Part shown: positions 6,301 to 21,132 of the stretch, piece by piece | How the letters are laid out: the number at the start of each line of letters is the position of its first letter | Position numbering within the stretch: position 1 is the first letter of the stretch | NCBI RefSeq assembly: GCF_000739635.1 | Contig: NZ_BATQ01000016.1 | Coordinates: forward strand, 62,001-126,000 | Direction of reading: 5' to 3' | Origin: Verrucomicrobium sp. BvORR034 | Lineage (GTDB): Bacteria; Verrucomicrobiota; Verrucomicrobiia; Verrucomicrobiales; Verrucomicrobiaceae | Length of the DNA stretch: 64,000 nucleotides | Position numbers and translations under genes: made by a program | Notes under the pieces: model-generated | What the model was told of the DNA's origin: nothing | Database searches by the model: none | The model's input: only the letters and a program-made list of their open reading frames with translations

Positions 6301-9300
6301 TGGCAACACCTCCACCGTGGACCTGGTCACTGGAGTGGCGGGAGCGAGCACGCTGGATGCGATGGTGAGTACGCTAATGATTGCGCAGAACGTCCGCAAT
6401 GGGGCTGCGGGCACCCCTACCACTGCCACCTTCACGATGGGGCAGGGGACGATGAACGCCACCTCCATCGTCATCGGCCAGCAGAATGCCGTCACCGGCT
6501 CCAATAGCTCAGGCAACGCCACCGGCACCTTGAGTCTGCATGGCGGCACCATCACCACCGGCACCCTGACCCTGGCCAACAAGCTGGCCACTGCCACGGC
6601 CCAGACCATCACGAGCAACTTCAATCTCTACAGCGGAGCGCTCTATGCCACGACTATTGAGCGAGGTGCCGTGGGCACGGGTGCCGGAGCAGATACGGCC
6701 ACCATCAACTTCAACTGGGTGGATGGCACGATCGGCAACATTGCAGGAGCGAACCAGACTGTCGATGGCAAGTCGGTTGTGAATGGTCTCACGGGCGGCC
6801 TCAACATTGTGCTCAATAACACAGGCAATGTCTCAGGGACCCACACATGGGCTGTCAGCGGCACCCAGACCGCTACAATCAAGAGCACCGCGATTCTGAG
6901 CGGGGCGGGTGGTTTGACGAAGACCGGCACTGGCACCCTGGTGTTTGAAGGGGCCAACACCTATGCGGGCATGACCATCGTGAACGCTGGCGAATTGCAA
7001 CTGAATGCCACTGGCACCCAGTCGATTGCCGGAAACGTGACGGTGAACGGTGGTTCGGTGAAATTGATGCAGTCAGCCCAGATCAACTCGGCCAGCAGCC
7101 TGGTGGTGGCAGGGGGTGCCTTCAATCTCCAGAACTTTGACCAGACACTTGCTGGCGTGCGTCTGGATTCAGGCACGATATCCGGCTCGGGCACGCTCAC
7201 CAGCACCACGGCCTTTGACCTGCGCTCTGGAACCGTGAGCGGCAAACTGGGCGGGACTGCCGGTCTCGCGAAGAGCACCACTGGTACCGTGATCCTTTCC
7301 GGCATCAACACCTATACGGGTGGCACCACCGTCAACAGTGGTATCCTCATTGCTGCCAACTCGGGTGCATTGGGCACCAACAACTCGCTGACCATCGCGA
7401 ATGGAGCAAGCTTCCTCTACCGGCCTGCCTCCAATGGAGCATTGAATCTGGGCACAGGCGCTTTGAACCTGCAAGGTGGCAGCACCATCGGCACCACCTT
7501 GACCGGTTTGCCCTCGCAGAATGCGATCACCAGTTCTGCCACGGCGTCCGCTGCCGGGGCGGTGAAAGTGGCGGTGTACTTCACTCCTGGCGTCATAGTG
7601 GCCAACGGCACTCACAATTTGGTGACGACCGGTGGGGGGCTAACCGCCGGCGGAGCGACCTACAGCGCTGCTTACTACAACCTTACCAACTCCACAGTCA
7701 GCTTCCAGTCGACCGACACCGCCCTCAGCGTAAATGTTGCCAGCACGACGGCTCTCGCTGCCGCCTATTGGAAGGGTGGGCTGGGCATTGGCAGTAATGT
7801 CTGGGCGCTGTCGGACGGCACCACGAGCAACTGGGTGACAAACGCCAACGGCACCGGAGCCACCGCTCTGGTCCCAGGAGCAGGGGCAGCGATCACCTTC
7901 TCTGCGACAGGAGCCACAGATCAGGGGGCGATGGTATTGGGAGCCAACATGTCCATTGCCTCGCTGACTGTGAGTGACACCAATGTCATCACGTTGAACG
8001 CAGACGGCAACACCCTCACCTTGTCCGCCGCAGGCGGGATCAACGTCACGGCGGGCGCAGGGGCGGTGACCCTGAACGCCGGACTCAATCTGGCGACGGC
8101 CCAGACCTGGACCAACAACAGCAGCAATACGCTTTCCATCGGCGGACCGGTGGTCTTCAATGGCACCTTCACGCTGACGGCGAACGGTTCAGGAAACACC
8201 GTGATCTCCGGTGCCCTCAGCGGTACTGGCGGTGTCACAAAGACCGGGACGGGATCCTTGACTCTTTCCGGCGCCAATACCAACACGGGCGCGCTGGCCG
8301 TGAACGGAGGTCGGGTCAATCTTTCCGGAGGTTACCAAGGGGCGATTTCGGTGGCCACGGGGACAAACAGCCGCGGCATGCTAAACATTCTGACGGGAGC
8401 CAGCCTCACCGGAACCAACATGGCTCTGGGCATCGGCAATGGTGAAGGGGCGAATGGTGCCGTTTACCAATCGGGTGGTGATGTGTTGATGAACAACAAC
8501 ATCAACCTGGGCCTGGGGGGCACATCGACCGCATCCTCCTACGGTTTCTTCAGCATGAGTGGCGGCACCCTTTCAGACACCAACGGGACGAACGTGCGTT
8601 TCCGAATGGGGGGCGGTGGCAACTACTCCAATGGAGTGTTCTACCAGTCAGGAGGATCCATCAGTATCGCCATTTCCAATGGGTTGGAAGTGGGTGGAAA
8701 CGGGACCGGAGGCTTCTCCAACTCCACTGGCATCGGTTACCTCACCGGCGGCACGTTCACCGCTGTTTCAAACCGTATCGGGTACAACAACACCACGAAC
8801 AGCACCGGCGGTATTCGGGGGGAGCAGACTGTAGCGGGAACGGCCGTGGTGACGATCAACGGCGCCACTACACTAGGCCAGGGGGCCGGGGACGTGGGCA
8901 TCCTGAACCTGAATGGGGGCTTGTATGTCACCCGACAGATCACCAAGGGCCTCGGCACCAGCATTGTGAACTTCAACGGTGGCACACTTAAAGTTGCGAC
9001 TGGCACTGGCGCCGCAGGTAGTTTCCTGACCGGACTCACCCAGGCAAATGTGTACTCCGGCGGGGTGAGGGTTGATACGAATGGCATCAATACGACCATC
9101 GCCCAGGTATTGGCAGCTCCCACCGGGAACGGGGTTTCCACCATTGAAGTGACGAACGGCGGCAGCGGCTACGTGGGTCCTCCGATCATTGTCATCACAG
9201 GCGCGGGCAGCGGAGCCACCGCGGTTGCCAACATGGTGGATGACGGCACGGGTAACGGGACCTTCAAGATTGCCAGCATCACCATCACGAGCGCGGGCAC

Positions 9301-10390
9301 GGGCTACTCCAGTGCGCCCACCGTCACCCTTGCCGGAGGTGGCGGCACCGGTGCGGTGGTGGGAATGGTTAACACCTCTGCGAATACATCGGGTGGTATC
9401 ACCAAGACCGGCAACGGCAATCTGACCCTCACGGGAGCCAACACCTACACCGGCGCAACGGTGGTGGAGACTGGGGTGCTGATCGCGGGCAATGCGAGCG
9501 CGTTTGGTGTCAACTCGGCGACAACGGTCAATGCGGGAGCCACCCTGCGACTCGCGGGCAATGGCGTCACCCTGGGTTCGCTCTCCGGGTCAGGCACGGT
9601 GGAAGATACCACCGCGACCGCGGCGACACTCACCCTGGGCAGCGATGGAACCTCGACCAACTTCAGCGGGGTGCTTCAGAATGGCTCCGGCGGAGGATTG
9701 CTCTCTGTGCTCAAGACCGGTGCAGGCACCCAGGTCTTTTCAGGAGTGAACACCTACACTGGCACCACCACGATCAATCAAGGCGCGCTGCAAATTGGTC
9801 ACGGGGGCGTGGGTTCGACAGTGGCAGGCAGCGCGCTGACGGTGAACGGTGTCAATGCAGCAGTGGCTGGCACTGGTCTCGCAGCGGGATCGGTGACCGT
9901 CACCTCAGGCTTTATTCGTCCGGGCGACAACGGCGGCGCAGCGACTGGCACCCTCAATGTTGGCAGCTTGAACCTGACTGCAGGCGGCAGCGGGGTCTTG
10001 CAGATCGAAGGTGCATCGAGCTATGACCGCATCAATGTGGTCAACAGCGGCGGGCTGACCCTGAACGGCAATCTGAATGTCACCAGTTCTCTCACAGGGA
10101 ATGAATACGACCAGACCTTCGCCATTGGCGCCACCTTCAATCTTCTCGACTGGGCGGGCCTCATGAACGGCACTTTCAATGTCGGCACCAACTTCCGCAA
10201 CGGCAGCGAGGATACCGGCCTCCAGTTTGACCTCCCCGATCTCAGTGCCCTGTCCCGCTACTGGGACGTCAGCCAGTTCCTCACAGACGGCACCATCACC
10301 GTGGTCGTCCCCGAACCTGGCCGCGCAATGCTCCTGCTCGCGGGCCTGAGCGCGGTGTTCTTGGGGCGTCGTCGTCGCTGCTGCAAATAG
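3314..10390 (+). CDS. Giant autotransporter-repeat protein with PEP-CTERM anchor
   Basis: A 2358-residue secreted surface protein. An N-terminal signal (hydrophobic core about residues 24-42) is followed by the WNQSLGGDFNTAANWNP opening typical of this family. The body is Gly/Thr/Asn-rich parallel-beta-helix sequence with at least eight copies of the autotransporter-associated beta-strand repeat (PF12951 type), recognisable as K-T/S-G-x-G-T-L-x-L-x-G-x-NTYTGGT. The C terminus is a PEP-CTERM sorting signal: VPEP, a hydrophobic helix, then RRRR. There is no C-terminal beta-barrel, so it is probably exported and anchored or processed by an exosortase-type system rather than autotransported. Residues about 213-665 and 770-1220 are diverged copies of each other. 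Adhesion or a structural matrix role is inferred. A hairpin terminator follows at once. Confidence 0.9.
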   Translation: MFKPVFASASRRLKTVVPTPSLLKKAACILAGVGVSFGTVSADLIQWNQSLGGDFNTAANWNPAVVPGAGDQAVFSIATGDVTLSSAAVLDSILFTGGASSFALGTLGGNGLTLGDGGSITVSSSLAGIGKTFTINAPLLLNPQSATTAGIFSLLNDATASSNILVVAGDISAGTTSATETLTLGGSNTGANLVSGAISNGAAASLALIKSGAGTWTLSGANTYTGGTAISEGTLALSGGNNRLLSTSAVSFNGPSGALDMGATSQTLAGLTFLAGSLNNQYVINGTGGALVVTGGNFEVGGGSAAAQSVVTNVNMSALGSFTFNRAAGIFNVGGTTNVGNVAITGNATVTLAAVNTITAASFNVGHYTTGVDSLNSGTVHLGQTNTINANAIVVGISKTTATVDFQNLTTPTLKIRGTLGTDTDRAQITVGSNDSGLTATVATFDLTNGGTVSSTLDAKVSTLRIGQNNRNNTTVGRAATGTFSMGLGTLDATTIIVGQQGALSGANTFSGAATGTFNISGGTVIATTLTLADKLSGAAVQTITSNLNLYSGTLSATTIQRGTTGTGAGANTATINFNWVDGTISNINGVNQTVSGKTAVNGLTGGLNIVLNNTGNVSGTHIWNVGGTQTSTLENTVTLSGAGSLRKTGTGTLVLQGTNTYAGATEVTAGTVRFATRGGLYNGDSTKWTSSNLVVSSGATAAFNVGGSGEFTVQDIDLLSSLGTTTGGFQSGSFIGLDTTNAVGNFVYNLALTNTDNGPNVLGLVKLGTGTLELTAANTYTGGTNIVAGTLALSGGNDRLYRAGVLNFTGSSGTLDVGSTNQSLGGMTFGIAGTNNYTITGASGTLSVTAGNLHIGGGGVGSTGANPTTVNMTGLGTFNYVNTSGTFSVGGRADIGAAVSSAGTLLMAANTNITATKFSVSPVSSGNSSPNTGTVRMGQNTVINASTIEVGVGKATSVLDFQTSLLNPTLKIRGTGGTDTDRAAITLGIHDSGVIGNTSTVDLVTGVAGASTLDAMVSTLMIAQNVRNGAAGTPTTATFTMGQGTMNATSIVIGQQNAVTGSNSSGNATGTLSLHGGTITTGTLTLANKLATATAQTITSNFNLYSGALYATTIERGAVGTGAGADTATINFNWVDGTIGNIAGANQTVDGKSVVNGLTGGLNIVLNNTGNVSGTHTWAVSGTQTATIKSTAILSGAGGLTKTGTGTLVFEGANTYAGMTIVNAGELQLNATGTQSIAGNVTVNGGSVKLMQSAQINSASSLVVAGGAFNLQNFDQTLAGVRLDSGTISGSGTLTSTTAFDLRSGTVSGKLGGTAGLAKSTTGTVILSGINTYTGGTTVNSGILIAANSGALGTNNSLTIANGASFLYRPASNGALNLGTGALNLQGGSTIGTTLTGLPSQNAITSSATASAAGAVKVAVYFTPGVIVANGTHNLVTTGGGLTAGGATYSAAYYNLTNSTVSFQSTDTALSVNVASTTALAAAYWKGGLGIGSNVWALSDGTTSNWVTNANGTGATALVPGAGAAITFSATGATDQGAMVLGANMSIASLTVSDTNVITLNADGNTLTLSAAGGINVTAGAGAVTLNAGLNLATAQTWTNNSSNTLSIGGPVVFNGTFTLTANGSGNTVISGALSGTGGVTKTGTGSLTLSGANTNTGALAVNGGRVNLSGGYQGAISVATGTNSRGMLNILTGASLTGTNMALGIGNGEGANGAVYQSGGDVLMNNNINLGLGGTSTASSYGFFSMSGGTLSDTNGTNVRFRMGGGGNYSNGVFYQSGGSISIAISNGLEVGGNGTGGFSNSTGIGYLTGGTFTAVSNRIGYNNTTNSTGGIRGEQTVAGTAVVTINGATTLGQGAGDVGILNLNGGLYVTRQITKGLGTSIVNFNGGTLKVATGTGAAGSFLTGLTQANVYSGGVRVDTNGINTTIAQVLAAPTGNGVSTIEVTNGGSGYVGPPIIVITGAGSGATAVANMVDDGTGNGTFKIASITITSAGTGYSSAPTVTLAGGGGTGAVVGMVNTSANTSGGITKTGNGNLTLTGANTYTGATVVETGVLIAGNASAFGVNSATTVNAGATLRLAGNGVTLGSLSGSGTVEDTTATAATLTLGSDGTSTNFSGVLQNGSGGGLLSVLKTGAGTQVFSGVNTYTGTTTINQGALQIGHGGVGSTVAGSALTVNGVNAAVAGTGLAAGSVTVTSGFIRPGDNGGAATGTLNVGSLNLTAGGSGVLQIEGASSYDRINVVNSGGLTLNGNLNVTSSLTGNEYDQTFAIGATFNLLDWAGLMNGTFNVGTNFRNGSEDTGLQFDLPDLSALSRYWDVSQFLTDGTITVVVPEPGRAMLLLAGLSAVFLGRRRRCCK
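3950..5310 (+). repeat. Internal duplication, copy A
   Basis: First of two diverged in-frame copies inside the giant surface-protein gene. It begins with a beta-strand repeat (TLSGANTYTGGT), continues with ALSGGNNRL, the INFNWVDGTI and VNGLTGGLNIVLNNTGNVSG segments, and closes with another beta-strand repeat (TNTYAGAT). Matching segments recur 1665-1671 bp downstream. Confidence 0.8.
5621..6975 (+). repeat. Internal duplication, copy B
   Basis: Second copy of the module at 3950-5310. The order of landmarks is identical (TAANTYTGGT, ALSGGNDRL, INFNWVDGTI, VNGLTGGLNIVLNNTGNVSG, ANTYAGMT). The NFNWVDG coding segments sit at 5041 and 6706, a 1665-bp offset. About 310 bp between the copies is not duplicated. 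Confidence 0.8.
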
Positions 10391-11437: not shown

Positions 11438-13141
11438 ATGATCCGAGTGCCAGCCGCCGAACTGCGTACGCCCTATCCCATTCCCTTTGAGGAAATGCTG
11501 GAGGCCGGGTTTGGCTCAGTGCTCGAGTGTGAGTGTCTTTGCGGATTGGTGCGTCAGGTCGCGGGAGAAGCGGCGCCCCGTCCTTCATTGTTTGAAATTG
11601 GCACCCACCGGGGCGCCGGCCTCTGCCATTTTCATGCCATGGCTCCGGAGTTGGAGCTTCAATCCTTGAATGTTCTTCCGGAGCATCTCCCGCACCTTCC
11701 CAGACAGATGGCCAGCGAGATTCTTCCTCGTGAGGAGATTGGCCGCTTCGCGATCGAGGCGGGCGTGCCCTTCGTTCAACACTATGGCAATTCGCGCACG
11801 TTCGACTGGGAGGCACTGGCAGAGCAAAATCAGTTCGATATCGTCTTTGTCGATGGCAGTCACGAGCAGTTCACCGTGTTTGCCGACACCTTGCATGCGT
11901 TGCAGATTCTCAAGCCGGGAGGATTGATCATCTGGCATGACTACAAGGTCATCGATGAACCGGGGAGGCAGGTGTTCGCTGCGGTCAATGATCTCGACGA
12001 GCACGAGTTCGGCGGCCAGATCCATCATGTGGAGGGTACCTGGCTGGCTTATGCGCGCAGGCCAGAGGGCGTGCCGCCTCGCGATTCGAGCCCAGCGATG
12101 CAGCAGGCTTCCAATACACCCGCGGCGGACCTTTCTCTCCGCCTGCGGGAGATCCCCACTCGCCATGCCACCCAGGCAGAGGCCATTGCGTGGCATCTCG
12201 CCCATAGTCGGAGGGCCAGCCTGGCCCGACGCGTCCGAGATTTGCCTGCGGTGCCGAGGGTGCTCTTCTTCTCTGATCACCGCAATCCAGTTTGGCCCGG
12301 GGCCTTGGAAACGCACTGTGCCACGGGTGCCTACGAGACCACTCAAGATCCAGGCCAAATCCGGCAGGCCGACGTGGTCGTCTTTCATCTTCCAGAAGTC
12401 CCTGCCTGGGCGCGGTTGCCCCGTCAGGATCACCAGATCTGGGTGGGAGTCACCATGGAACCGGATGGTTACTGTCCCAGCCAGGCGGACGCCTCACAGA
12501 TGTCCACATTGGACCTGCTGCTTTCCTATCATGCCTGGGCAGATCTTCAGTTGACCTATGCCCCGCCCGGCACCCTTGCGGAGGTGCTGCGCCCGCCTCC
12601 GCCCAAGGATCCTGAAAAACTGGTCTGTGCCTTTGTCTCCAATTCCCACTCGCTTTCGGGGCGTGAGCGACTCATTGGCTTGCTGGAAAAACACCTGCCG
12701 GTGCACCACTTTGGGGAATGGCATCACAACCAGCCAGGACCGTGCCCGAAAGGGAGGGAGGGCAAGCTGGAGGTGTTGCGCCAGTATCAGTTTTGCCTGG
12801 CCATTGAAAACTGCCTGCAAGAGGACTACGTCTCGGAGAAATGGTACGACTGTCTGGCAGCAGGGTGTGTGCCCATCTATTTTGGCGCTCCCAACATTGC
12901 GGAGTATGCCCCCGGTCCTGGTGCGTATTTGCAGGTTTCGACCGCCGGAGCTATGACTCAACTGGCGGCCAAAGTGAAAGCCACGGCATGCACCACCCCG
13001 CATTATGAGAGCTATTTCCGGTGGAAACAGCACGTAGCCACTCCCTTCCAACAGCTGTATGATCGCCCCCTCGACCGCCTCACCTTGATGGAGAAAATCG
13101 ATTTGATGATCAAGCGTGCCCGGGAGGGCGGCCTCGCTTGA
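11438..13141 (+). CDS. Methyltransferase-GT10 fucosyltransferase fusion
   Basis: A 567-residue cytoplasmic two-domain enzyme. Residues 1 to about 210 are a class I SAM-dependent methyltransferase of the Methyltransf_24 type: FEIGTHRGAG for the cofactor loop, FDIVFVDGSHEQF, and LKPGGLIIWHDY. Residues about 260-560 match glycosyltransferase family 10 (alpha-1,3/1,4-fucosyltransferase-like), with WVGVTMEPDGY, a QYQFCLAIENCLQEDYVSEK donor-binding segment and the CVPIYFGAPN motif. The likely role is transferring a deoxyhexose such as fucose and methylating the sugar or its acceptor. It is the first gene of the glycosylation locus, has a terminator-like hairpin straight after the stop, and is followed by a small peptide gene on the same strand. 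Which sugar and acceptor are used cannot be told from sequence. Confidence 0.85.
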   Translation: MIRVPAAELRTPYPIPFEEMLEAGFGSVLECECLCGLVRQVAGEAAPRPSLFEIGTHRGAGLCHFHAMAPELELQSLNVLPEHLPHLPRQMASEILPREEIGRFAIEAGVPFVQHYGNSRTFDWEALAEQNQFDIVFVDGSHEQFTVFADTLHALQILKPGGLIIWHDYKVIDEPGRQVFAAVNDLDEHEFGGQIHHVEGTWLAYARRPEGVPPRDSSPAMQQASNTPAADLSLRLREIPTRHATQAEAIAWHLAHSRRASLARRVRDLPAVPRVLFFSDHRNPVWPGALETHCATGAYETTQDPGQIRQADVVVFHLPEVPAWARLPRQDHQIWVGVTMEPDGYCPSQADASQMSTLDLLLSYHAWADLQLTYAPPGTLAEVLRPPPPKDPEKLVCAFVSNSHSLSGRERLIGLLEKHLPVHHFGEWHHNQPGPCPKGREGKLEVLRQYQFCLAIENCLQEDYVSEKWYDCLAAGCVPIYFGAPNIAEYAPGPGAYLQVSTAGAMTQLAAKVKATACTTPHYESYFRWKQHVATPFQQLYDRPLDRLTLMEKIDLMIKRAREGGLA

Positions 13142-13174
13142 GAGGGGCATTTGGCACCTCTCTTGCTTCTTATT
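13140..13174 (+). terminator. Terminator after methyltransferase-GT10 gene
   Basis: GAGAGG (13140-13145) pairs with CCTCTC (13157-13162), with an extra GC/GC pair inside, and is followed by the T-rich stretch TTGCTTCTTATT. It starts within the stop codon of the upstream gene and would insulate the small peptide gene from read-through. Confidence 0.55.
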
Positions 13175-13200
13175 GATCGCTGCGTGCCATAAATTATTCT
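13173..13200 (+). promoter_or_regulatory. Candidate sigma70-type promoter for peptide gene
   Basis: TTGATC (13173-13178) and TATTCT (13195-13200) are separated by 16 bp in a locally AT-rich patch that stands out in this GC-rich DNA. Each hexamer matches the consensus at four of six positions. It lies 57 bp upstream of the 44-codon ORF and overlaps the end of the preceding terminator region. Confidence 0.35.
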
Positions 13201-13257
13201 CTTGACGGGGTTTCTTCGATCCCTTTTCCTAACCGCAACTCATCAACGTCACATCAT

Positions 13258-13392
13258 ATGGAATTCGACAGCCCCGCTGACTTCGCCACCGTTGCCACCT
13301 CCCCTGTCATGCTCGATTTGAGCCTGGACGAACTGGACGCGATTCTTGAGGTGGACGTGGTGAACACGGTGCCTCCCCTGACCAACGTTTAA
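13258..13392 (+). CDS. 44-residue acidic peptide, possible modified-peptide precursor
   Basis: A short ORF (ATG 13258, TAA 13390-13392) encoding 44 residues. It is acidic, lacks Cys, His, Lys, Arg, Trp and Tyr, and has seven Ser/Thr. Residues 19-30 read LDLSLDELDAIL (beginning at Leu19), which resembles the amphipathic Asp/Glu-Leu-rich helix near the end of leader peptides in ribosomally made, modified peptides; the last 13 residues are VDVVNTVPPLTNV. The GC3 pattern and an independent upstream AT-rich promoter-like region support a real gene. It lies between a methyltransferase-GT10 gene and two convergent glycosyltransferase genes, and its stop codon overlaps that of the GT1 gene. A precursor or a small glycosylation target is inference; it could also be an unrelated microprotein or non-coding. 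No protease, transporter or cyclase is nearby. Confidence 0.5.
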   Translation: MEFDSPADFATVATSPVMLDLSLDELDAILEVDVVNTVPPLTNV

Positions 13393-14675
13393 TCAGGCTG
13401 GCGGTGCAGCCATCGCTCGATCTGGACGCAGGCCGTCTTCAGGGCCGAATTTGAATCGAAGTGCGGCGCCAATTCACTGGCGCGGCTTCGATTTTCTTCT
13501 GTTAGCACCCGAGTCTCCAGCACCTCAGCCAATGCCGGGGCGGTCAGCTGGTGTGGATTCACGGCAGCGCCGAGCCCCAAGCTAACCACCTGCCGGGCAT
13601 TGTAGAACTGGTCGTTCCCATACGGCTCGATCAGCAGCGGAGTGCCTGCCGTGATCGCACGGGCCACGGTGCCGATGCCACCATGGGTGATGACCGCCGC
13701 CGCCTGGGCAAAGAGTCGGTGCTGAGGACCTTCAGTTAGCAGGGCCGCCTCCCCTCTGGCGCAGGCTGATTGAAAGGCGTCACTCCGCAGAGCCGCCCAA
13801 CCTGCCTGCGCCACCAGGGGACGTCGCAAGAGTCTCGCGGCTTCCAGATGCAGGTCCAGCACCCGTTCCGGGTGGGCCAGCGGCTGGCTGCTGAAGGCCA
13901 GGACCAGAGGAGCAGGCTGGCCCTCCAGAAGGTTCGCAAGAGAGTCCGCCGGATCCCGACCCTCCCAATGCGGAGGTTCGTGGAGCCAAAATCCCGTTTG
14001 CACAATCTCCCGTCCGGTTTCCACCGCGGGTACGCCAAAAAGCGGATGCGTGGCCAGGAGCACCCGGGGGGCGACAAAGAGATCGCGCTCGTCTGCCACC
14101 GGGACCTCCGCAAGCCCCAGTTGGCGCCGCAGAGCATGAATGCGGTCTCGATAGCGGCGGGTCCACGGCTGGGTGGCATCCCGCTCCTCACGGGCGGCGA
14201 TGCCTGCCGCCGCCGCCGTGCCGGGAGCCGGGTAGAGCCAGGGGAGCACGCAGACCGTGATCCACGGGATGCCGGCGAGATCACTCACCATGCGACCGAT
14301 CGACTGAAGTCGCGAGCACACCAGCAGGTCAGCCCCGGCACAGGCGGCCGTCACGTCTTCCAGCATTTCATCGAACCCAAGCTTTTCATGAAGCTCCGGC
14401 TGGTTCACGCCGGTGGTGCGATCCCTCACGTCAGGAGGGCCTCCTTTCTCCGGCAGCCAATGGTCGAAGGCCTCCGGTTTGTTTCGCACCGTGGTGGGGT
14501 CCTGTTCGCGGCGGGTGGGATGGAGTTGCATGCCGCAGCTCTCCACGTGGAGCCGGAGGTATTCCGGCCCCGCATATCTCACGATATGCCCCCGCTCTAC
14601 CAGCCTCCGTCCGAGTGCCAGGAAGGGGAAGTGGTCTCCCAGCGTGCCAGTGGAGGTGAGTGTCAGCAGGGCCAT
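13389..14675 (-). CDS. GT1-family glycosyltransferase (UGT/MGT type)
   Basis: A 428-residue glycosyltransferase with the GT-B fold, related to macrolide and glycopeptide glycosyltransferases. The N terminus has the TSTGTLGDHFPFLALGRRL acceptor-domain opening. The C-terminal nucleotide-sugar site reads FAQAAAVITHGGIGTVARA, followed by GTPLLIEPYGNDQFYNA, the UGT signature with the HGG and DQ residues intact. The start at 14675 is chosen because MALLTLTSTG begins the domain; an upstream in-frame start at 14720 would overlap the preceding gene. The gene begins 5 bp after the three-domain glycosyltransferase gene and is surely in the same operon. Its TAA stop overlaps the stop of the small peptide gene on the other strand. 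No signal peptide or membrane segment is visible, so it acts in the cytoplasm. Confidence 0.9.
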   Translation of the reverse strand: MALLTLTSTGTLGDHFPFLALGRRLVERGHIVRYAGPEYLRLHVESCGMQLHPTRREQDPTTVRNKPEAFDHWLPEKGGPPDVRDRTTGVNQPELHEKLGFDEMLEDVTAACAGADLLVCSRLQSIGRMVSDLAGIPWITVCVLPWLYPAPGTAAAAGIAAREERDATQPWTRRYRDRIHALRRQLGLAEVPVADERDLFVAPRVLLATHPLFGVPAVETGREIVQTGFWLHEPPHWEGRDPADSLANLLEGQPAPLVLAFSSQPLAHPERVLDLHLEAARLLRRPLVAQAGWAALRSDAFQSACARGEAALLTEGPQHRLFAQAAAVITHGGIGTVARAITAGTPLLIEPYGNDQFYNARQVVSLGLGAAVNPHQLTAPALAEVLETRVLTEENRSRASELAPHFDSNSALKTACVQIERWLHRQPD

Positions 14676-14680
14676 GACGG

Positions 14681-17041
14681 TCAGGGGTGCACGATCTCCA
14701 CCTTGGGCAGGCCCCAGCACGTCACCCCGAAGTCCTGGGCCATCTGGGCGAGGCCTTCAGTTTCCACGAACCCACGATATGGCATGGCTGGGAAGCGCAG
14801 CCCGTGGCGATGCAGGTCCGCCTCGACCAGCAGCATGGTGCCTCCCACCCCGTCCAGTTCCACCTCCTCCTGATCCCGAAACGCATCCAGATACTTCCGG
14901 CTCAGTCCCGCGGGTGGTTGGTAGAGCCCGTCCAGGAGATGCTCGGGGCCGTCGCGCAGCGCCTTGTCTTTGAACACAAAGCTGTTGAGGTCAAACGAGG
15001 GGCCGCCATACACGCCCTTCACGCAGTTCGGGCACACAATCTGGTGACCTGAATCCAATAGCCTGAGCAGCACATCAGCCGGCCATTTCAGCAAGTCCAC
15101 ATCGATCCACAGGACCCACGCCTCGTCATCCAGCGCGCTTTCCACCAGCGTATTCCGGCTTTGGGCGAGCACGGTGCGCCTCTGCCTTTGCAGGGAGGGT
15201 TGCGAGCGTTCTCCCTTCAGTTGAAAGCCGTAGTCACGCTGGAGCAAGCGAGTGCCTGCCAGCCGGTGGCCATGCGCTGCCAGATGCTCACGTGCGACCG
15301 CCGCCGTGGCGTCACGGCTGTCGCTTTCCAGCAGTGCCAGGGAGATCTTGTCCAGGGGGTAGTCCGTGCGCAGCAGGTTGGCGAAGAAAGGACCGAGAAA
15401 CGGCACGGCGTCCTTGACCGGCGTGGCAATCAGGATCTTGGGCAGTTCTCGGGTGATGGAGACTGTGGAACGAATTGGTGGCACGGACGCAATGGTCGCC
15501 GCAGGAACAGGCCGCGGTGACAGGGCAAGGGATGGGGTCGCTGACAGTCCCGGCAAGCCCAACGCCAGCAGGTACTCATGCACCGGGAGCGCGGGCTGCA
15601 TGATGCGCAATCTCGTCTCACAAGCCGACTCCTCCCAGTGCTGGCTGGCCGCCATCCAGAGTGAGTCCCAGTGAGCCTCTGAGAAGGTGTTCTGGCCGTG
15701 GCAGATGTAAGTGTAGAGCGTGGGGGCATCCAGCATGCAGATGCGTCCCTTCGCGGCCAGCTCCTGGACAGGCGGGGTGTCCTCGCCGGCGCGGAGCTCG
15801 GGATACGCCGTGATGGTGCCGCGCCGCCACATTAGGGCGCATTCCCAGATGCGGTTCGATGAAATGGCAAACCGGCTGCGGGCCGGCCACCACATCTGCA
15901 GGCGGTTCAGGCCGCAGGCATCCGCTCCGCTGGCAAAGATCGCCATGACCTGACGTTCCAGCCTCGCTGGACTGGAGAGGTCATCGTCATCCCATTGGCA
16001 GAGCAGGCTTCCGCGTGCCTCGGCCAGTGCCAGATTCCGCAGAGCGCCCAGAGGCTTGCCTTCGGGCGGCATCTGGATCCACCGGATGCGACCCCCGTCA
16101 TCATCCTGGACAAAAGGGGGTAGGTCATTGCCTGAGTCATCGATCACCACCAGTTCACGGTTGGCGTAGGTCTGCCGTCGAAAGGCAGCAACCGCCTGTC
16201 CGGCCAGCTCCCGTCGCCGTCCCGTGACCATGAGGCAGGAGACCAGCGGACGGTATCCGGCAGCCTCTGCCAAAGAGGCTGTCTTGGGTTCATTGAGCAC
16301 TCCGGACACCAGAGGCGAGGCCGAGCGCAGCAGGAACAGGCGCGTCTGCTCATGTCCCTTTCGCCACCAGGTGCCGTCCCAGTAGTGCAGGGCATAGGTG
16401 CCAGGGCCATACCAGTGAGGAGAGCCGGGTTCCCGGGCCTTCAGCCACTCTCCATCTTGATTGGTCGCGGGCTGCACAGACTCGCTGGGAAGCAGCTTGG
16501 GCCGCCATTCAGGTTGCTCGCAACCGTGTGTGACGTGGGTCAGCAGGAAGGGGCCAGTGGCATCCAGCGGGCCCGTGTTCTTGCGGCGTTGTGTCATCTC
16601 CGCCACCACCAGCTTCCAGAAGGGATGACCGGGTTCAGAGGCCATCCAGGCGTTTCCCACAATGCGGCGCATGCCCGCCGAAGCGGAAACTTTGGCCGAC
16701 AGATGCAGCTCTGGTTCCAACGGCAGCAGCAGCCGTTCACCTGACAGGAGTGGTTCGAGCGGTCTTAGGCACTCCGTGTCCAGATCGGCATAGACCCCGC
16801 CAAAGTGGTCCAGCAGGAGATACCTTGCCGCATCGGCTCGCATGATGCCGGATCCATACCCGTCGTACACCGGCAAAAAGTCCGGATAGCAGGTGGCGAC
16901 AAACTCCCGTAGGGAGGCATCTGTCCAGAGCCGGTGCTCCCACTCCGGGAGATGGTTAGCCCAGGTGCTGCGCAGGGCCGCCCACCTCTCTGGCAGCGCC
17001 TCGTCACGCCACATCTGGTGGAGAATTTTTGGGATGGGCAT
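14681..17041 (-). CDS. Three-domain glycosyltransferase: GT32-GT2-GT62
   Basis: A 786-residue protein joining three glycosyltransferase domains. Numbered from the ATG at 17041: residues 1-250 are a GT32 (OCH1/Gly_transf_sug) domain starting IPKILHQMW with the DLD motif at 86-88; residues about 265-500 are a GT-A GT2-like domain with PLVSCLMVTGR, VVIDDSG and a DDDD acidic motif at 351-354; residues about 535-786 resemble Anp1 (GT62 mannan synthase), with PKILIATPVKDA, ESDSRDAT and a DVD motif at 647-649. A GTG at 17071 could add 10 residues. Each DxD-type metal site looks intact, so the enzyme may add several sugars in turn. It is the first gene of the operon with the GT1 gene. Acceptor and sugars are unknown; there are no membrane segments. 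Confidence 0.85.
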   Translation of the reverse strand: MPIPKILHQMWRDEALPERWAALRSTWANHLPEWEHRLWTDASLREFVATCYPDFLPVYDGYGSGIMRADAARYLLLDHFGGVYADLDTECLRPLEPLLSGERLLLPLEPELHLSAKVSASAGMRRIVGNAWMASEPGHPFWKLVVAEMTQRRKNTGPLDATGPFLLTHVTHGCEQPEWRPKLLPSESVQPATNQDGEWLKAREPGSPHWYGPGTYALHYWDGTWWRKGHEQTRLFLLRSASPLVSGVLNEPKTASLAEAAGYRPLVSCLMVTGRRRELAGQAVAAFRRQTYANRELVVIDDSGNDLPPFVQDDDGGRIRWIQMPPEGKPLGALRNLALAEARGSLLCQWDDDDLSSPARLERQVMAIFASGADACGLNRLQMWWPARSRFAISSNRIWECALMWRRGTITAYPELRAGEDTPPVQELAAKGRICMLDAPTLYTYICHGQNTFSEAHWDSLWMAASQHWEESACETRLRIMQPALPVHEYLLALGLPGLSATPSLALSPRPVPAATIASVPPIRSTVSITRELPKILIATPVKDAVPFLGPFFANLLRTDYPLDKISLALLESDSRDATAAVAREHLAAHGHRLAGTRLLQRDYGFQLKGERSQPSLQRQRRTVLAQSRNTLVESALDDEAWVLWIDVDLLKWPADVLLRLLDSGHQIVCPNCVKGVYGGPSFDLNSFVFKDKALRDGPEHLLDGLYQPPAGLSRKYLDAFRDQEEVELDGVGGTMLLVEADLHRHGLRFPAMPYRGFVETEGLAQMAQDFGVTCWGLPKVEIVHP

Positions 17042-17191
17042 GCAGGAGCGCAGGATGAAGTCCTGCTGCACGTCCTAGCGGCGGGCGATGGGGGATTCAA
17101 GGAGAAAATCGCCCCGCCTCTTTTGCCAGCGTCAACCCAAGGCCGGGAAATTGGAGCAGGGCACGATCACCCCAGTCCATCCCGGTCGATG

Positions 17192-17767
17192 CTATTTTCC
17201 TCGTACCGCGAGCGCCGCCCTGGCCGAATCCGCCATGGTGACCAGCGCTGCCCCCAGCATGATGGCGTCTTTCACCACGAGGCGCCCACGCCCGCTGAGG
17301 TAGGGGAAGCCGTGCTCCGTATCACCCAGTGCAGGCACCCAGGACTCGGGCGTGGTGATGAGGAACGACAGCGTGACCAGAGACATCACCGCGACGAGAA
17401 AGCTCCCCACTGCGGCCAGTCCGGGTGACCAGGGATGAAGGCAGAGCAGCAGCCCGTAGATGACGATCACGGCACCCAGGCCGTAGGAGAACTCATAGGT
17501 GCGGTTCTCCTCATGCCAGGCCCGGTTCTGCGGCACGAACTGGCCTTCGGCATTCATATGGGTCTTGTATTCCGGTGCCGGGTGTTTGTAGAGGAAGCTC
17601 ATGAGTGGGCTGTTGGCCACGAAGGGCACAATGCCATCTGCCTCATACTTGAAGATCTTGAGCCCGCCGATCCACAGGAGCACCACCACGAGGCCCAGGC
17701 GGGTAAGAGTCATTCCCAGCCGTTCTGAGCCTGCTGCCAGCGTGAGAAAGCGCGAATAGAGATTCAT
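17192..17767 (-). CDS. DUF417 family membrane protein
   Basis: A 191-residue inner-membrane protein of the DUF417 (YkgB-like) family. Four hydrophobic helices are visible: about residues 19-36 (with LVVVLLWIGGLKIFKYEADG, the family hallmark), 86-106, 111-133 and 160-180. The GLKIFKYEA and FVANSPLMSFLY motifs after the first helix are typical. The ATG at 17767 is preferred; the frame extends further up but the extension overlaps the stop region of the regulator gene. It starts 50 bp after the AraC-type regulator and may be co-transcribed with it. The physiological role of the family is unsettled; some members respond to reactive chlorine stress. Confidence 0.85.
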   Translation of the reverse strand: MNLYSRFLTLAAGSERLGMTLTRLGLVVVLLWIGGLKIFKYEADGIVPFVANSPLMSFLYKHPAPEYKTHMNAEGQFVPQNRAWHEENRTYEFSYGLGAVIVIYGLLLCLHPWSPGLAAVGSFLVAVMSLVTLSFLITTPESWVPALGDTEHGFPYLSGRGRLVVKDAIMLGAALVTMADSARAALAVRGK

Positions 17768-17817
17768 GGGCCACGGTATCGCCTGCGTGTGCCGCAAACC
17801 ATGGATGCCAGGAGCCA

Positions 17818-18705
17818 CTACATGGACAGATTGCGCCCGCCGCGAATCGCCGTCTCGAATTCACGGTACTTCACCGGGGAAAGCCCGATGGCCTGCTTGA
17901 ACAGGCGGCTGAAGTAGAACTCATCTTCCAGCCCGACTTCCGCAGCGATCTCCTTCACCGGACGAAGGGTATGCAGCAGCTGCCACTGGGCGTGTTTGAC
18001 GAAGCGCTCTTTCACGATCTGCGTGGGTGTGCGTCCCAGTGCGCGTTTCACGGCGCGACCCAGAGCCTTGGGGGTGAGATGAAGCATCGTCGCGTAGTCG
18101 GCAGGTGCATGCAGCTTTTGATAGTGCTGCTCCACGAGTTCGATGAAGCGGCTCACCACCTCCGGGGATCGACCCAGCGGCGTGCCTTCCCCCCCGGCCC
18201 CGAGTTCAAGTTTGCGTCGGGTGGCTTTGATGAGCAGCACCTTCAGATAGGAGACCAGGAGTTCCGTATGGGCCAGACCACCCTGGTCCAGTTCGCGGCG
18301 CATCTGAGTCAGGAGGTCCGTGATGTTCTCGACCAGTTCGCCGTCCACAGGAACGTGGGGCGCACCATACACTTCATTAAAGAGCACCCCATTGCAGCCG
18401 ATCTCATCATGATGGGTCTCGATGCAGAGGAAGTTCGCGTGGAACTGCAAGACGGTGCCCTCCACCCGTGCAGCGCGGAAGCTCTCCACATGAAAAATCT
18501 GGTAAGGCTGGAAGAAGATCAACGCGGCTCCGGACAGAGCGTGGGTGGTCTCTCCCGCGTGGTAAGTGCCTCCTTGGGGCAGCCATAGCACCGTGAAATA
18601 ATTGGCACGCTGGGCACCCTCCGGCCACCGCAGGTCCTCCAGCCTTTCCACACGGAAGGCGGGCTCTCCCCGGCGGGGATCGTAAAGGTGCAGCGGGATG
18701 CTCAT
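17818..18705 (-). CDS. AraC-family transcriptional regulator
   Basis: A 295-residue regulator with an N-terminal cupin-like sensing half (about residues 1-150, FRVERLEDLRWPEG onward) and a C-terminal AraC/XylS double helix-turn-helix (about residues 195-290), including LGRTPTQIVKERFVKHAQ and EVGLEDEFYFSRLFKQ, which ends GLSPVKYREFE, the typical C-terminal signature. The ATG at 18705 (MSIPLHLYDP) is chosen over an upstream start at 18810 because that extension crosses a strong terminator hairpin. It likely controls itself and the DUF417 gene downstream. The effector is not apparent. Confidence 0.9.
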   Translation of the reverse strand: MSIPLHLYDPRRGEPAFRVERLEDLRWPEGAQRANYFTVLWLPQGGTYHAGETTHALSGAALIFFQPYQIFHVESFRAARVEGTVLQFHANFLCIETHHDEIGCNGVLFNEVYGAPHVPVDGELVENITDLLTQMRRELDQGGLAHTELLVSYLKVLLIKATRRKLELGAGGEGTPLGRSPEVVSRFIELVEQHYQKLHAPADYATMLHLTPKALGRAVKRALGRTPTQIVKERFVKHAQWQLLHTLRPVKEIAAEVGLEDEFYFSRLFKQAIGLSPVKYREFETAIRGGRNLSM

Positions 18706-18751
18706 GAGGGTGACAGGGATGAATACGGAACCAGCCACGGGTGGCCAGAAC

Positions 18752-18787
18752 AAAAAAGTGCCGCAGGCCTGCGCCTGCGGCACTTTT
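18752..18787. terminator. Strong intrinsic terminator after pirin gene
   Basis: An 11-bp perfect stem, GTGCCGCAGGC paired with GCCTGCGGCAC (18758-18768 and 18773-18783), has a 4-base loop, AAAAAA on one side and TTTT on the other. On the minus strand it follows the pirin stop by about 20 bp and separates pirin from the AraC gene. Confidence 0.9.
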
Positions 18788-18806
18788 CCCGAAGCCTGTC
18801 GAGGGA

Positions 18807-19505
18807 TCAACCCAGGTCAAACAAGATGCCCTCGGCATCCTGGTCAGCCTTGATGGTGAGAGTGCCAGCCGTCTCGCTGCTGGCCCCGTCGCCAGCGACC
18901 AGTGAGTTGCCGTTCACACTCAGACTGCCCTTGGCAAGCTGCAGCCACACCCCGCGTCCGGCGGCGAGATCGTGCGTAATTTCCTCGCCTGCCTTGATCT
19001 TCAGCCGGTAGATGCTCGCATCCTGGTGGATGACCGCAGAGTCTTCCCGCCCGTCTTCTGAGATGACCAGCACTTTGGACTGTGTGTCATGCTCTGGCTT
19101 CGGGTGCCACTCCGTGTAGCTCGGGGTGAGCCCGCGGCGCTCGGGGAAGATCCACATTTGCAGCATGTGAGTCGGCTCGGTCTGGGAGGGGTTGTACTCG
19201 CTGTGGCGCACGCCCTGGCCAGCGCTCATGAGCTGGATCTGGCCTGGCTTGAGCGCACGGCCGTTACCCATGCTGTCGGCGTGTTGCAGGGTTCCCTCCA
19301 GCACGTAGCTGAAGATTTCCATGTCGCGGTGGGGGTGGGTGGGGAAGCCGCCTCCAGGGGCGATGCGGTCTTCATTGATGACGCGCAGGCTGCGGAAGTG
19401 GACATGCTTTGGATCTTCGTACTCGGCGAAGCTGAAGCTGAACTTGGAGTCCAACCAGCCGTGGTTGGCGTGGCCGCGGTCATTGGATTTGCGTACAGTG
19501 ATCAT
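18807..19505 (-). CDS. Pirin family protein (YhhW-like)
   Basis: A 232-residue bicupin of the pirin family, related to E. coli YhhW, which can act as a quercetinase. The ATG at 19505 (MITVRKSNDRGH) begins the family-typical N terminus; much longer upstream extension in frame is not supported. The metal-binding motif is seen as FPTHPHRDMEIFSYVLEG plus the later GVRHSEYN, giving the three His and one Glu expected. The C-terminal cupin lacks these ligands, as usual. It is transcribed alone, divergent from the DUF1501 operon across 250 bp, and ends at a strong terminator. Substrate in this organism is unknown. Confidence 0.9.
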   Translation of the reverse strand: MITVRKSNDRGHANHGWLDSKFSFSFAEYEDPKHVHFRSLRVINEDRIAPGGGFPTHPHRDMEIFSYVLEGTLQHADSMGNGRALKPGQIQLMSAGQGVRHSEYNPSQTEPTHMLQMWIFPERRGLTPSYTEWHPKPEHDTQSKVLVISEDGREDSAVIHQDASIYRLKIKAGEEITHDLAAGRGVWLQLAKGSLSVNGNSLVAGDGASSETAGTLTIKADQDAEGILFDLG

Positions 19506-19589
19506 AGGATTTGGGAAGCTGGATGTTTCGATAGGGGAGTCAGTCCGGAAGTGGCGCTGACGGAGCGAGCATGACCCTGGCGGCGGTTT

Positions 19590-19607
19590 GGAACTAATAC
19601 TTGTTCC
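19590..19607. promoter_or_regulatory. Inverted repeat GGAAC-N8-GTTCC
   Basis: GGAAC (19590-19594) and GTTCC (19603-19607) form a perfect 5-bp inverted repeat around an AT-rich 8-bp centre, in the 250-bp divergent region between pirin and the DUF1501 gene. It could be an operator for either. The spacing does not fit the usual LexA boxes. Confidence 0.3.
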
Positions 19608-19755
19608 GAACTCGGAGCATACCCTGTGGGTTGGCTCGAAAGAGGCGGCAAAAGGCTGCGCAGATACTCCATGGCCCGCCCAGCTTTCTCCATTCAAGAA
19701 ACCGCTCTGAGCCCGTAATATCGGGCAGTTCAGACCCTCACCCCTTCTTCCAGGC

Positions 19756-21132
19756 ATGTTCAAGTTCTCTGCAAAAGGCTCCATCTCCACCTGCGACGGC
19801 GTATCGCGGCGCGACTTCCTGCAAGCGGGCGCACTGGGGGCGATTGGGCTGTCGTTGCCCCAGTTCAACGCTCTCCGGGCCTCCGGTGTGGTGGACAAAA
19901 AGAAAGATGATCGGGCCTGCATCATGATCTTCAATCTTGGCGCGCCCAGCCAGATCGATACCTGGGATCCCAAGCCGGACGCTCCTCGGGAAGTGCGCGG
20001 CCCTTTTAAGACCATCCGCACCAACTGCCCTGACATCCAGCTCACGGAGATCTTCCCGCACATGGCGAAGATTGCGGACAAGTTCTCCCTCGTGCGCAGT
20101 GTGTATCACAATGCGGCAGCGGTGCATGATACCGGGCACCAGATGATGCAGACGGGTCGCCTCTTCAGCGGCGGCATCAATACCCCGCATGTGGGCTGTG
20201 CCCTGGAGTTCCTCAAAGGTCGCAATTCTGAGCTGCCCGCGCACGTCATTCTGCCGGAGCCGATGGGCCCCACTGGTGGCAACATGCCTCACGGGCAGGA
20301 CGCAGGCTTCCTCGGCAAGACCTATGATCCGTTCGTGCTGAATGCGGACCCTTCCGCCAAAGATTTCAAGGTGCCGGATCTGCTGCCTCCGCAGGAGATC
20401 AGCGAGGTGCGACTCGCCCGTCGCCGCGCCCTGCGGGACATGGTGGACCAGTCAGTGAAGAACTTCGAGGCCAGCGAGTCCGCCAAGCTCATGGACACGA
20501 ACTTCCACGATGCCTACCGGCTCATGACCAGCAGCGCGGCCCGGGAGGCGTTTGACCTCACGCAGGAGAAGCCGGCGGTGCGCGAGCGTTATGGGATGAA
20601 CCGCTTTGGCCAGTGCTGCCTGCTGGCCCGCCGTCTGGTGGAGCGTGGAGTTCGGTTTGTCACGGTGAACAGCTTCATCACGGTGTTCAACGAGATCACC
20701 TGGGACATTCACGGCAGCAAGCCCTTCACCAGCATCGAAGGCATGCGCGATCTCGTGGCTCCCATGTACGACCAGGGCTACAGCGCCCTCATTGAGGACC
20801 TGCACCAGCGTGGGATGCTGGACAACACGCTCGTCTGCAATCTGGCGGAGTTTGGCCGTACGCCCAAGGTCAATCCCGCCGGAGGCCGGGATCACTGGCC
20901 GGGGGTGTGGACCGTGGGTTTCGCCGGCGGCGGCGTCAAAGGTGGCCGCGTGATCGGTCGCAGCGATGAGATCGGTGCCTACCCCGCGGAACACGCGGCG
21001 GCTCCCGCCAATGTCGTGGCCACGATCTACGAGTCGCTGGGCATTGACCTGGAGACCGAGCTGCCCGGGCCGCAGAACCGGCCCTTCCCGGTGGTGGACC
21101 GCGGTTTCGACCCGATCCGCCAGCTCTTCTAG
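19756..21132 (+). CDS. DUF1501 family protein, Tat-exported
   Basis: A 458-residue DUF1501 protein, distantly related to the alkaline phosphatase/sulfatase fold. A twin-arginine signal, SRRDFLQAGALGAIGLSLP (about residues 17-35), predicts export of a folded protein, probably with cofactor or metal bound. Family segments include IMIFNLGAPSQIDTWDPKPD, YHNAAAVHDTGHQMMQTGRL, the ERYGMNRFGQCCLLARRLVE region, NEITWDIHG and LAEFGRTPKVN...GRDHWPG, whose Asp/His residues match the family's putative metal site. It is the first gene of a three-gene operon with a DUF1549/DUF1553 protein and a cytochrome/WD40 protein; such DUF1501-DUF1549/1553 pairing is a hallmark of Planctomycetes and Verrucomicrobia. 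Activity is unknown. Confidence 0.9.
   Translation: MFKFSAKGSISTCDGVSRRDFLQAGALGAIGLSLPQFNALRASGVVDKKKDDRACIMIFNLGAPSQIDTWDPKPDAPREVRGPFKTIRTNCPDIQLTEIFPHMAKIADKFSLVRSVYHNAAAVHDTGHQMMQTGRLFSGGINTPHVGCALEFLKGRNSELPAHVILPEPMGPTGGNMPHGQDAGFLGKTYDPFVLNADPSAKDFKVPDLLPPQEISEVRLARRRALRDMVDQSVKNFEASESAKLMDTNFHDAYRLMTSSAAREAFDLTQEKPAVRERYGMNRFGQCCLLARRLVERGVRFVTVNSFITVFNEITWDIHGSKPFTSIEGMRDLVAPMYDQGYSALIEDLHQRGMLDNTLVCNLAEFGRTPKVNPAGGRDHWPGVWTVGFAGGGVKGGRVIGRSDEIGAYPAEHAAAPANVVATIYESLGIDLETELPGPQNRPFPVVDRGFDPIRQLF

Follow-up and report, generated by a model that had tools for sequence, protein, structure and literature searches.

What is encoded by a 44-codon open reading frame that lies among large glycosyltransferase genes in a member of the Verrucomicrobiaceae, and what might so small a product do beside these enzymes? 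The ORF runs from ATG to TAA at positions 13258-13392 of the forward strand of the window, the 64-kb stretch of DNA that was analyzed. The initial annotation had described it as a Cys-free, acidic ORF between a methyltransferase-GT10 gene and two convergent glycosyltransferase genes, and its coordinates, charge, and neighbours all match this description. The predicted peptide (MEFDSPADFATVATSPVMLDLSLDELDAILEVDVVNTVPPLTNV) lacks Cys and has a net charge of -9 and a pI of 4.05, as computed from the sequence. Its start codon follows the stop of the methyltransferase-GT10 fusion gene (MT-GT10) by 116 nt, and its 3' end overlaps the end of the convergent GT1 gene by 4 nt, both in the window and in the same-genus genome G002. 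The features of the locus are as follows.

11438..13141, + strand: fusion of Methyltransf_24 and GT10 fucosyltransferase (MT-GT10), 567 aa (Pfam, alignment)
11474..17207: stretch missing as a block from same-genus genome G003, corresponding to the cassette without the initial 12 codons of MT-GT10
13140..13162, + strand: hairpin over and beyond the stop codon of MT-GT10, which it may terminate (weak T tract)
13202..13206, + strand: TTGAC, possible -35 element, 51 nt 5' of the ATG (sequence comparison)
13258..13392, + strand: peptide gene, 44 aa (homologues, Ka/Ks, alignment of peptides)
Peptide residues 1-18: variable N-terminal part, with M1, F3, and S5 invariant
Peptide residues about 19-33: conserved acidic, leader-like segment, LDLSLDELDAILEVD
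Peptide residues 34-44: constrained C-terminal part, VVNTVPPLTNV
13389..14675, - strand: GT1 (UGT/GtfB/sterol-GT-like) glycosyltransferase (Pfam, alignment, PDB profile, translation)
14681..17041, - strand: three-domain fusion GT32-GT2-GT62 (Anp1/Mnn9), 786 residues (Pfam, alignment, PDB profile)

Coding and expression of the peptide gene

Homologues of the peptide were identified among 57 genomes (the window's own and relatives), with identities to the window of 86% in G002 (same genus, g1), 63% in G004 (another genus, g2), and 42% to 51% in G005, G015, and G020 (a third genus, g3). The other matches in this set (E 0.45 to 6.9), mostly in long or broken frames, were taken as chance. Between the window and G002 the ORF carries 9 synonymous and 7 nonsynonymous changes (dN 0.074, dS 0.341), a synonymous excess with p 0.0044 in a Fisher test on rounded counts; over 40 codons of the comparison with G004, pN is 0.22 and pS 0.80 (p 1.5e-7). 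Nucleotide identity to G002 is 87% in the ORF versus 55% in the stretch between the MT-GT10 and peptide genes. The start position is common to all 14 known copies (13 ATG, 1 GTG), and each copy has its stop codon 1 to 4 residues past a conserved Asn. By eye, no Shine-Dalgarno-like sequence is present in the 20 nt 5' of the start in 13 of the 14 copies; G005 has AAAGG.

Could the frame nevertheless be spurious, or the coding lie on the opposite strand, where a mirror ORF occupies 13254-13385? ORFs of this size arise readily in the GC-rich window, which has 105 ATG ORFs of 40-60 codons, so that length alone is at chance level. Mirror ORFs are also present at other loci, and Ka/Ks of the mirror frame between the window and G002 is similar to that of the forward frame because the wobble positions of the two coincide. 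The protein scores separate them: in all ten pairs chosen among the 14 copies, the forward frame scored highest of the six frames (137 versus at most 107 for window and G004; 70 versus at most 45 for window and copy 15b). The shared start and stop positions and the forward orientation of the g3 terminator described below likewise stand against a chance or mirror-strand ORF, which we reject on the synonymous excess, the frame scores, and the difference in identity between ORF and intergenic stretch, leaving it a negligible probability. The stretch 13258-13392 is a real, conserved gene under purifying selection.

The signals ahead of the gene agree with the initial annotation in part. The hairpin that it proposed as a terminator, at 13140-13162, is more stable than shuffled sequences (z -3.5); its T tract is poor and its counterpart in G002 is not significant (z -1.1). 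As to the promoter-like patch, TTGAC occurs 48-51 nt 5' of the ATG in the window, G002, and G004, and 70 nt 5' in G005; it was not found before the first peptide copies of G015 and G020, and a sigma-70 scan of 13142-13257 found no promoter. In both complete arrays of g3, the final copy is followed by a strong hairpin with a T run in the sense of the peptide, as judged from folds made without shuffle comparison. It is plausible from these sequences that the peptide gene forms its own transcript. A short ORF 3' of a hairpin might also be a regulatory leader peptide or attenuator, or a small RNA with a fortuitous frame. This is very improbable: the constraint is codon-shaped, the gene occurs in up to six tandem copies, and between it and the convergent GT1 there is no other gene of the same orientation. 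The attenuator or leader peptide was rejected because there is no co-directional gene 3' of the peptide for it to control.

Distribution and genomic sites of the cassette

Of the 68 family genomes, six contain the peptide, and exactly these six contain full-length MT-GT10; at the thresholds used, neither occurs alone among the 68. Seven further genomes match part of the MT-GT10 profile only. At all six loci the peptide gene lies just downstream of MT-GT10, and at five of them GT1 is convergent with it and followed by GT32-GT2-GT62, while the sixth contig (G005) ends 10 bp past the first peptide. The three-domain fusion is complete in the window, G002, G004, and G015; in G020 the contig ends within it. 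Within the limits of the contigs, gene order and orientation are identical among the six loci. That homologues should lie beside such glycosyltransferase genes was a prediction of the initial annotation; MT-GT10 adjoins the peptide at six of six loci, and GT1 with at least part of GT32-GT2-GT62 at five. The peptide is therefore a member of the cassette, linked to MT-GT10 and glycosyltransferase enzymes in every genome that holds it. The cassette spans three genera and, in the genomes searched, is confined to the Verrucomicrobiaceae; with only three genus-level contexts, this co-occurrence rests on few evolutionary events.

Beyond the family, a 387-genome sample of the phylum, in which just 2-3 candidates were scored per genome for the fusions, yielded no full-length MT-GT10 or GT32-GT2-GT62 except the window's own. 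Partial matches in this sample are a GT32 part in G065, a GT10 part in G112, and a methyltransferase part in G355. A contig scan of 84,980 species returned 13 loci, four of them full-length and all four already known cassettes; the scan used two short patterns and is not exhaustive, as it returned neither G004 nor the window's own genome. No plasmid sequence matches the peptide at E 1. MT-GT10 matches nine plasmid records, none over more than 80% of the query; the five matches listed cover at most 31%. In 58 viral contigs the methyltransferase part only is matched (residues within 30-210).

Distant peptide matches at E 1 occur in 70 genomes of the phylum sample besides the window's own (best in G394, 4.5e-4), and frames were translated at six loci (L040, L041, L042, L044, L050, and L056). 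Of the two nearest look-alikes, the one at L056 is a 40-codon ORF with LDSILEYDV between two genes that we take from their sequences to be prepilin-like, with no glycosyltransferase seen; the one at L042 lies antisense within a gene that presumably, again from its sequence, is dihydrolipoamide-acyltransferase-like.

The cassette is located at different genomic sites in the three genera. In g1, a PATR autotransporter (PATR-repeat protein) and an esterase-like gene flank one end, and DUF417/AraC the other. In g2, the neighbours are GFO_IDH_MocA and SDR genes at one end and a protein without family assignment, then ClpX, at the opposite end. In g3, OppB/OppC-type permeases adjoin one end and QueC lies beyond the other. 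Opp-type ABC permeases adjoin the cassette in g3 only, and ClpX is two genes away in g2 only. In G003, 94 bp stand in place of window positions 11474-17207 (5,734 bp), and a scar (L112:1474-1515) retains the first 12 codons of MT-GT10 with their ATG and reaches a stop after 13 codons. From this block absence and 13-codon scar, the cassette was most simply lost there by deletion. The genes that flank the G004 site are separated by 6.0-6.5 kb in G004. In the cassette-free G014 the distance is 2.0 kb, filled with other DNA, and at another locus of the window's own genome it is 0.46 kb. Part of the g3 Opp flank (query 1-1901) is present in G022, where neither peptide nor fusion was found and the contig may end.

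Several further features were observed around the cassette. In g1 it adjoins a 2358-aa protein (3314-10390) with eight Pfam matches to the PATR passenger repeat and, by eye, a PEP-CTERM-like end. To its right, at 17195-20081, are DUF417, AraC-type regulator, and pirin-like genes; since 17208-18820 is kept at 89% in the cassette-free G003, this region is not part of the cassette. A dispersed repeat of about 170 bp (L025:8931-9102) has many copies in the three g3 genomes and lies just outside the GT32 end of the cassette.

Anatomy of the peptides and their partner enzymes

All 14 aligned peptides are 44-48 residues long, acidic, and without a single Cys. Fourteen positions are invariant (window numbering): M1, F3, S5, D20, L21, L23, L26, D27, I29, L30, E31, D33, V38, and N43. 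The central segment has the consensus LxLxxLDxILExD, and the part that follows reads VVNTVPPLTNV in g1, VVNTVPPPLNQP in g2, and [IV]T[DN]SVTGPGG[AF]NQ plus a tail in g3. Across copies this part shares the pattern D-[VI]-x-[ND]-[ST]-V-...-N, in which one Ser/Thr and one Asn are conserved. The leader-like segment that the initial annotation had read from the single sequence is conserved, and a constrained C-terminal stretch is present too. No cleavage motif was recognised in the peptides. A structure prediction (AlphaFold) was uninformative, with a pLDDT of 63 and a short helix at residues 23-29.

The peptide genes are in tandem in g3, with six copies in G020, four in G015, and at least one in G005, where the contig ends. 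Over the 11 g3 copies, pN/pS is lowest in the C-terminal core up to NQ (0.084), followed by the leader-like segment (0.156) and the five residues before that segment (0.263), as sums over all pairs, which are not independent. Past NQ, the tails are TVT, FA, FN, TPV, PK, GPS, KPV, PPA, IK, TEF, and PK, free in sequence and in their length of 2-3 residues, and the core is near-invariant. Many multi-copy RiPP precursors diversify their core; that of g3 does not, a point against the acceptor reading below. An array of one repeated core with only 2-3 end residues free reads as dosage, not diversification, and arrays of four and six genes are as expected of a stoichiometric substrate.

No Pfam or NCBIfam leader family matches the peptides above its curated cut-off; the best scores (TIGR04451, E 1.8 in 1 of 14 members; PF19256, E 0.15 in 2 of 14) are at chance level. 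A PDB search with the peptide profile returned a single match, ribosomal protein L27 (E 0.81), also taken as chance. The DSIL stretch is, we presume, reminiscent of the DSL motif of ACP-like carriers; such a carrier was rejected, as the window peptide matches no Pfam family at E <=1 and is too short. Class II lanthipeptide and double-Gly leaders carry ELDxIL-like motifs, which the DELDAIL of the peptide superficially resembles, although it has no GG/GA site.

The three large proteins of the cassette contain five glycosyltransferase domains and one methyltransferase domain. Conserved Met starts are at 14675 for GT1 (longest ORF start 14720) and at 17041 for GT32-GT2-GT62 (longest ORF start 17071). 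The Pfam domains of the latter are Gly_transf_sug, Glycos_transf_2, and Anp1, the first and last of which we take to be the equivalents of GT32 and GT62. In profile searches against the PDB, the best solved relatives are glycoprotein 3-alpha-L-fucosyltransferase A for GT10 (9s6a, E 2e-36), Mnn9 for GT62 (3zf8, E 1.4e-28), an initiation-specific alpha-1,6-mannosyltransferase for GT32 (9n3s, E 3.6e-9), heparosan synthase B for GT2 (E 2.8e-9), and sterol glucosyltransferases and GtfA/GtfB for GT1. By eye, the motifs ADLD in GT32, WDDDD in GT2, DVD in GT62, and HGGIGT in GT1 are kept, which we assume to be the catalytic-type motifs of these families. The GT10 motif is DYVSEKW in g1, DYVTEQW in G004, and RYVTEKW in g3; as it is not uniform, activity of this domain is not assured everywhere. 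A structure model of the fusion (AlphaFold, pLDDT 52) is weak.

No protease or exporter conserved with the cassette was detected in a scan of 17 proteins from the cassette and its flanks (8 + 9), so these two weak points, already named in the initial annotation, stand. A defence system was rejected, as PADLOC matched none of the four cassette proteins at E 0.01. GDP-mannose dehydratase is present in all nine genomes examined, cassette-free ones included; it is permissive, not diagnostic.

A possible peptide acceptor for glycosylation

The constant linkage to glycosyltransferases, the tandem copies, the binding-like segment, and the constrained C-terminus with its Ser/Thr and Asn are together best read as those of an acceptor. 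We consider it probable (roughly 0.6), from sequence comparison, that the peptide is the substrate of the glycosylation enzymes of the four-gene cassette, as a RiPP-like precursor or a primer. The peptide of 44-48 residues would be made and recognised by at least one cassette enzyme through the LxLxxLDxILExD segment. Sugar would then be placed on the constrained C-terminal part, where the conserved Ser/Thr at window residue 37 is the likeliest acceptor (with Asn43 as the alternative), and the GT1, GT32, GT2, GT62, and GT10 domains would extend it into a short glycan. The methyltransferase domain would perhaps methylate a sugar or the peptide. The product would be a trimmed, RiPP-like glycopeptide or a peptide-primed glycan, which host proteases and exporters would have to serve because none is conserved with the cassette. 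All of these steps, from the choice of acceptor residue and the sequence in which enzymes and sugars act to the methyl site, trimming, and export, are candidates inferred from the sequences.

Instead of being modified, the peptide might be an accessory protein (adaptor, activator, or scaffold) that binds MT-GT10 or the other glycosyltransferases via its acidic segment, the glycan being lipid- or sugar-linked. The central segment does look like a binding helix, the C-terminal core is invariant instead of diversified, and machinery for leader removal was not found among the proteins scanned. Arrays of four and six copies are nevertheless easier to explain for a substrate that is consumed than for a catalytic accessory, the constrained C-terminus with its conserved Ser/Thr and Asn would need a reason of its own, and by Pfam the four-gene cassette has no lipid-carrier or polysaccharide-export gene; we consider an accessory role unlikely, if worth keeping in view. 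More improbable is that the small gene is an independent hitch-hiker in the cassette, such as a type I toxin, an antitoxin, or a stress peptide. Neither PADLOC nor Pfam gives a clue to the peptide, and its functional link to the enzymes is deduced from their association. That association, however, holds at three different genomic sites in six of six genomes, with convergent packing and the 4-nt overlap in the window and G002, and the peptide is acidic and, by eye, lacks any long run of hydrophobic residues.

Taken as an acceptor, the peptide places the cassette, in outline, close to a glycosylated RiPP. A short precursor is gene-encoded (a conserved coding ORF in six genomes), enzyme genes lie beside it (MT-GT10 in six of six) and may act on it, and the leader-like segment and constrained C-terminus may mark a leader and a core, though no protease was found among the proteins scanned and no cleavage motif was recognised. 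The suggestion in the initial annotation of a ribosomal peptide decorated with sugar and methyl groups is supported in part: a conserved peptide gene lies beside MT-GT10 at six of six loci, with GT1 and at least part of GT32-GT2-GT62 at five, and no conserved protease or exporter was found among the proteins scanned. More specifically, a ribosomal peptide of fixed sequence may prime a multi-sugar, methylated glycan built by eukaryote-Golgi-type transferases (FucT, Och1/Mnn9-like), with amplification in g3 serving dosage, a tentative proposal to which we give rather less than even odds. A peptide-primed glycan of this kind would form a class of bacterial products apart from glycocins, from lipid-linked glycans, and from the glycosylated RiPPs described so far.

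Glycocins (sublancin, glycocin F, thermoglycocin), as described in PMC12457901, similarly combine a short ribosomal peptide with a neighbouring glycosyltransferase gene, and the chemistry to be expected is likewise O- or S-glycosylation of a core. Unlike the Cys core with disulfides of glycocins (PMC12457901), the cassette peptides are Cys-free and so form no disulfides, and neither a C39 peptidase/ABC transporter (among the 17 proteins scanned) nor a thiol oxidoreductase (among the proteins scanned) was found. Five glycosyltransferase domains in three proteins compare with the one glycosyltransferase of glycocins, e.g., SunS or ThgS (PMC12457901). As for a SunS-type enzyme, the cassette has a GT2 domain inside a fusion (by Pfam only). 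A glycocin was rejected on the absence of Cys from the 14 peptides and of a C39 transporter from the scanned proteins. Glycosylated lanthipeptides are ribosomal peptides to which sugars and methyl groups are added, decorations that the product proposed here would share; cacaoidin is reportedly one of them (PMC8068269). In contrast to cacaoidin-type lanthipeptides, the cassette has no Cys in its peptide and no lanthionine synthase domain, and a lanthipeptide was rejected on these two grounds.

Among the open-access papers listed, as represented by titles and the beginnings of abstracts, no description of the cassette was found, nor any such system for the phylum. If the peptide is the acceptor, the cassette would form a glycopeptide pathway that has neither Cys in its peptide nor a transporter of its own and would be a compact model for how bacteria build complex glycans on peptides, and its Mnn9-like (GT62) and Och1-like (GT32) domains would gain a candidate substrate. 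By sequence, the GT10, GT32, and GT62 parts score best against eukaryotic Golgi-type glycan-building enzymes; unlike these, they occur in a bacterium, where they are joined with a methyltransferase or with one another and accompany a peptide of 44 residues.

The joining of Och1-like, GT2, and Mnn9-like domains in a single bacterial protein is an observation in its own right. Full-length GT32-GT2-GT62 occurs only alongside the cassette, both in the 68 family genomes and in the 387-genome phylum sample (two candidates scored per genome).
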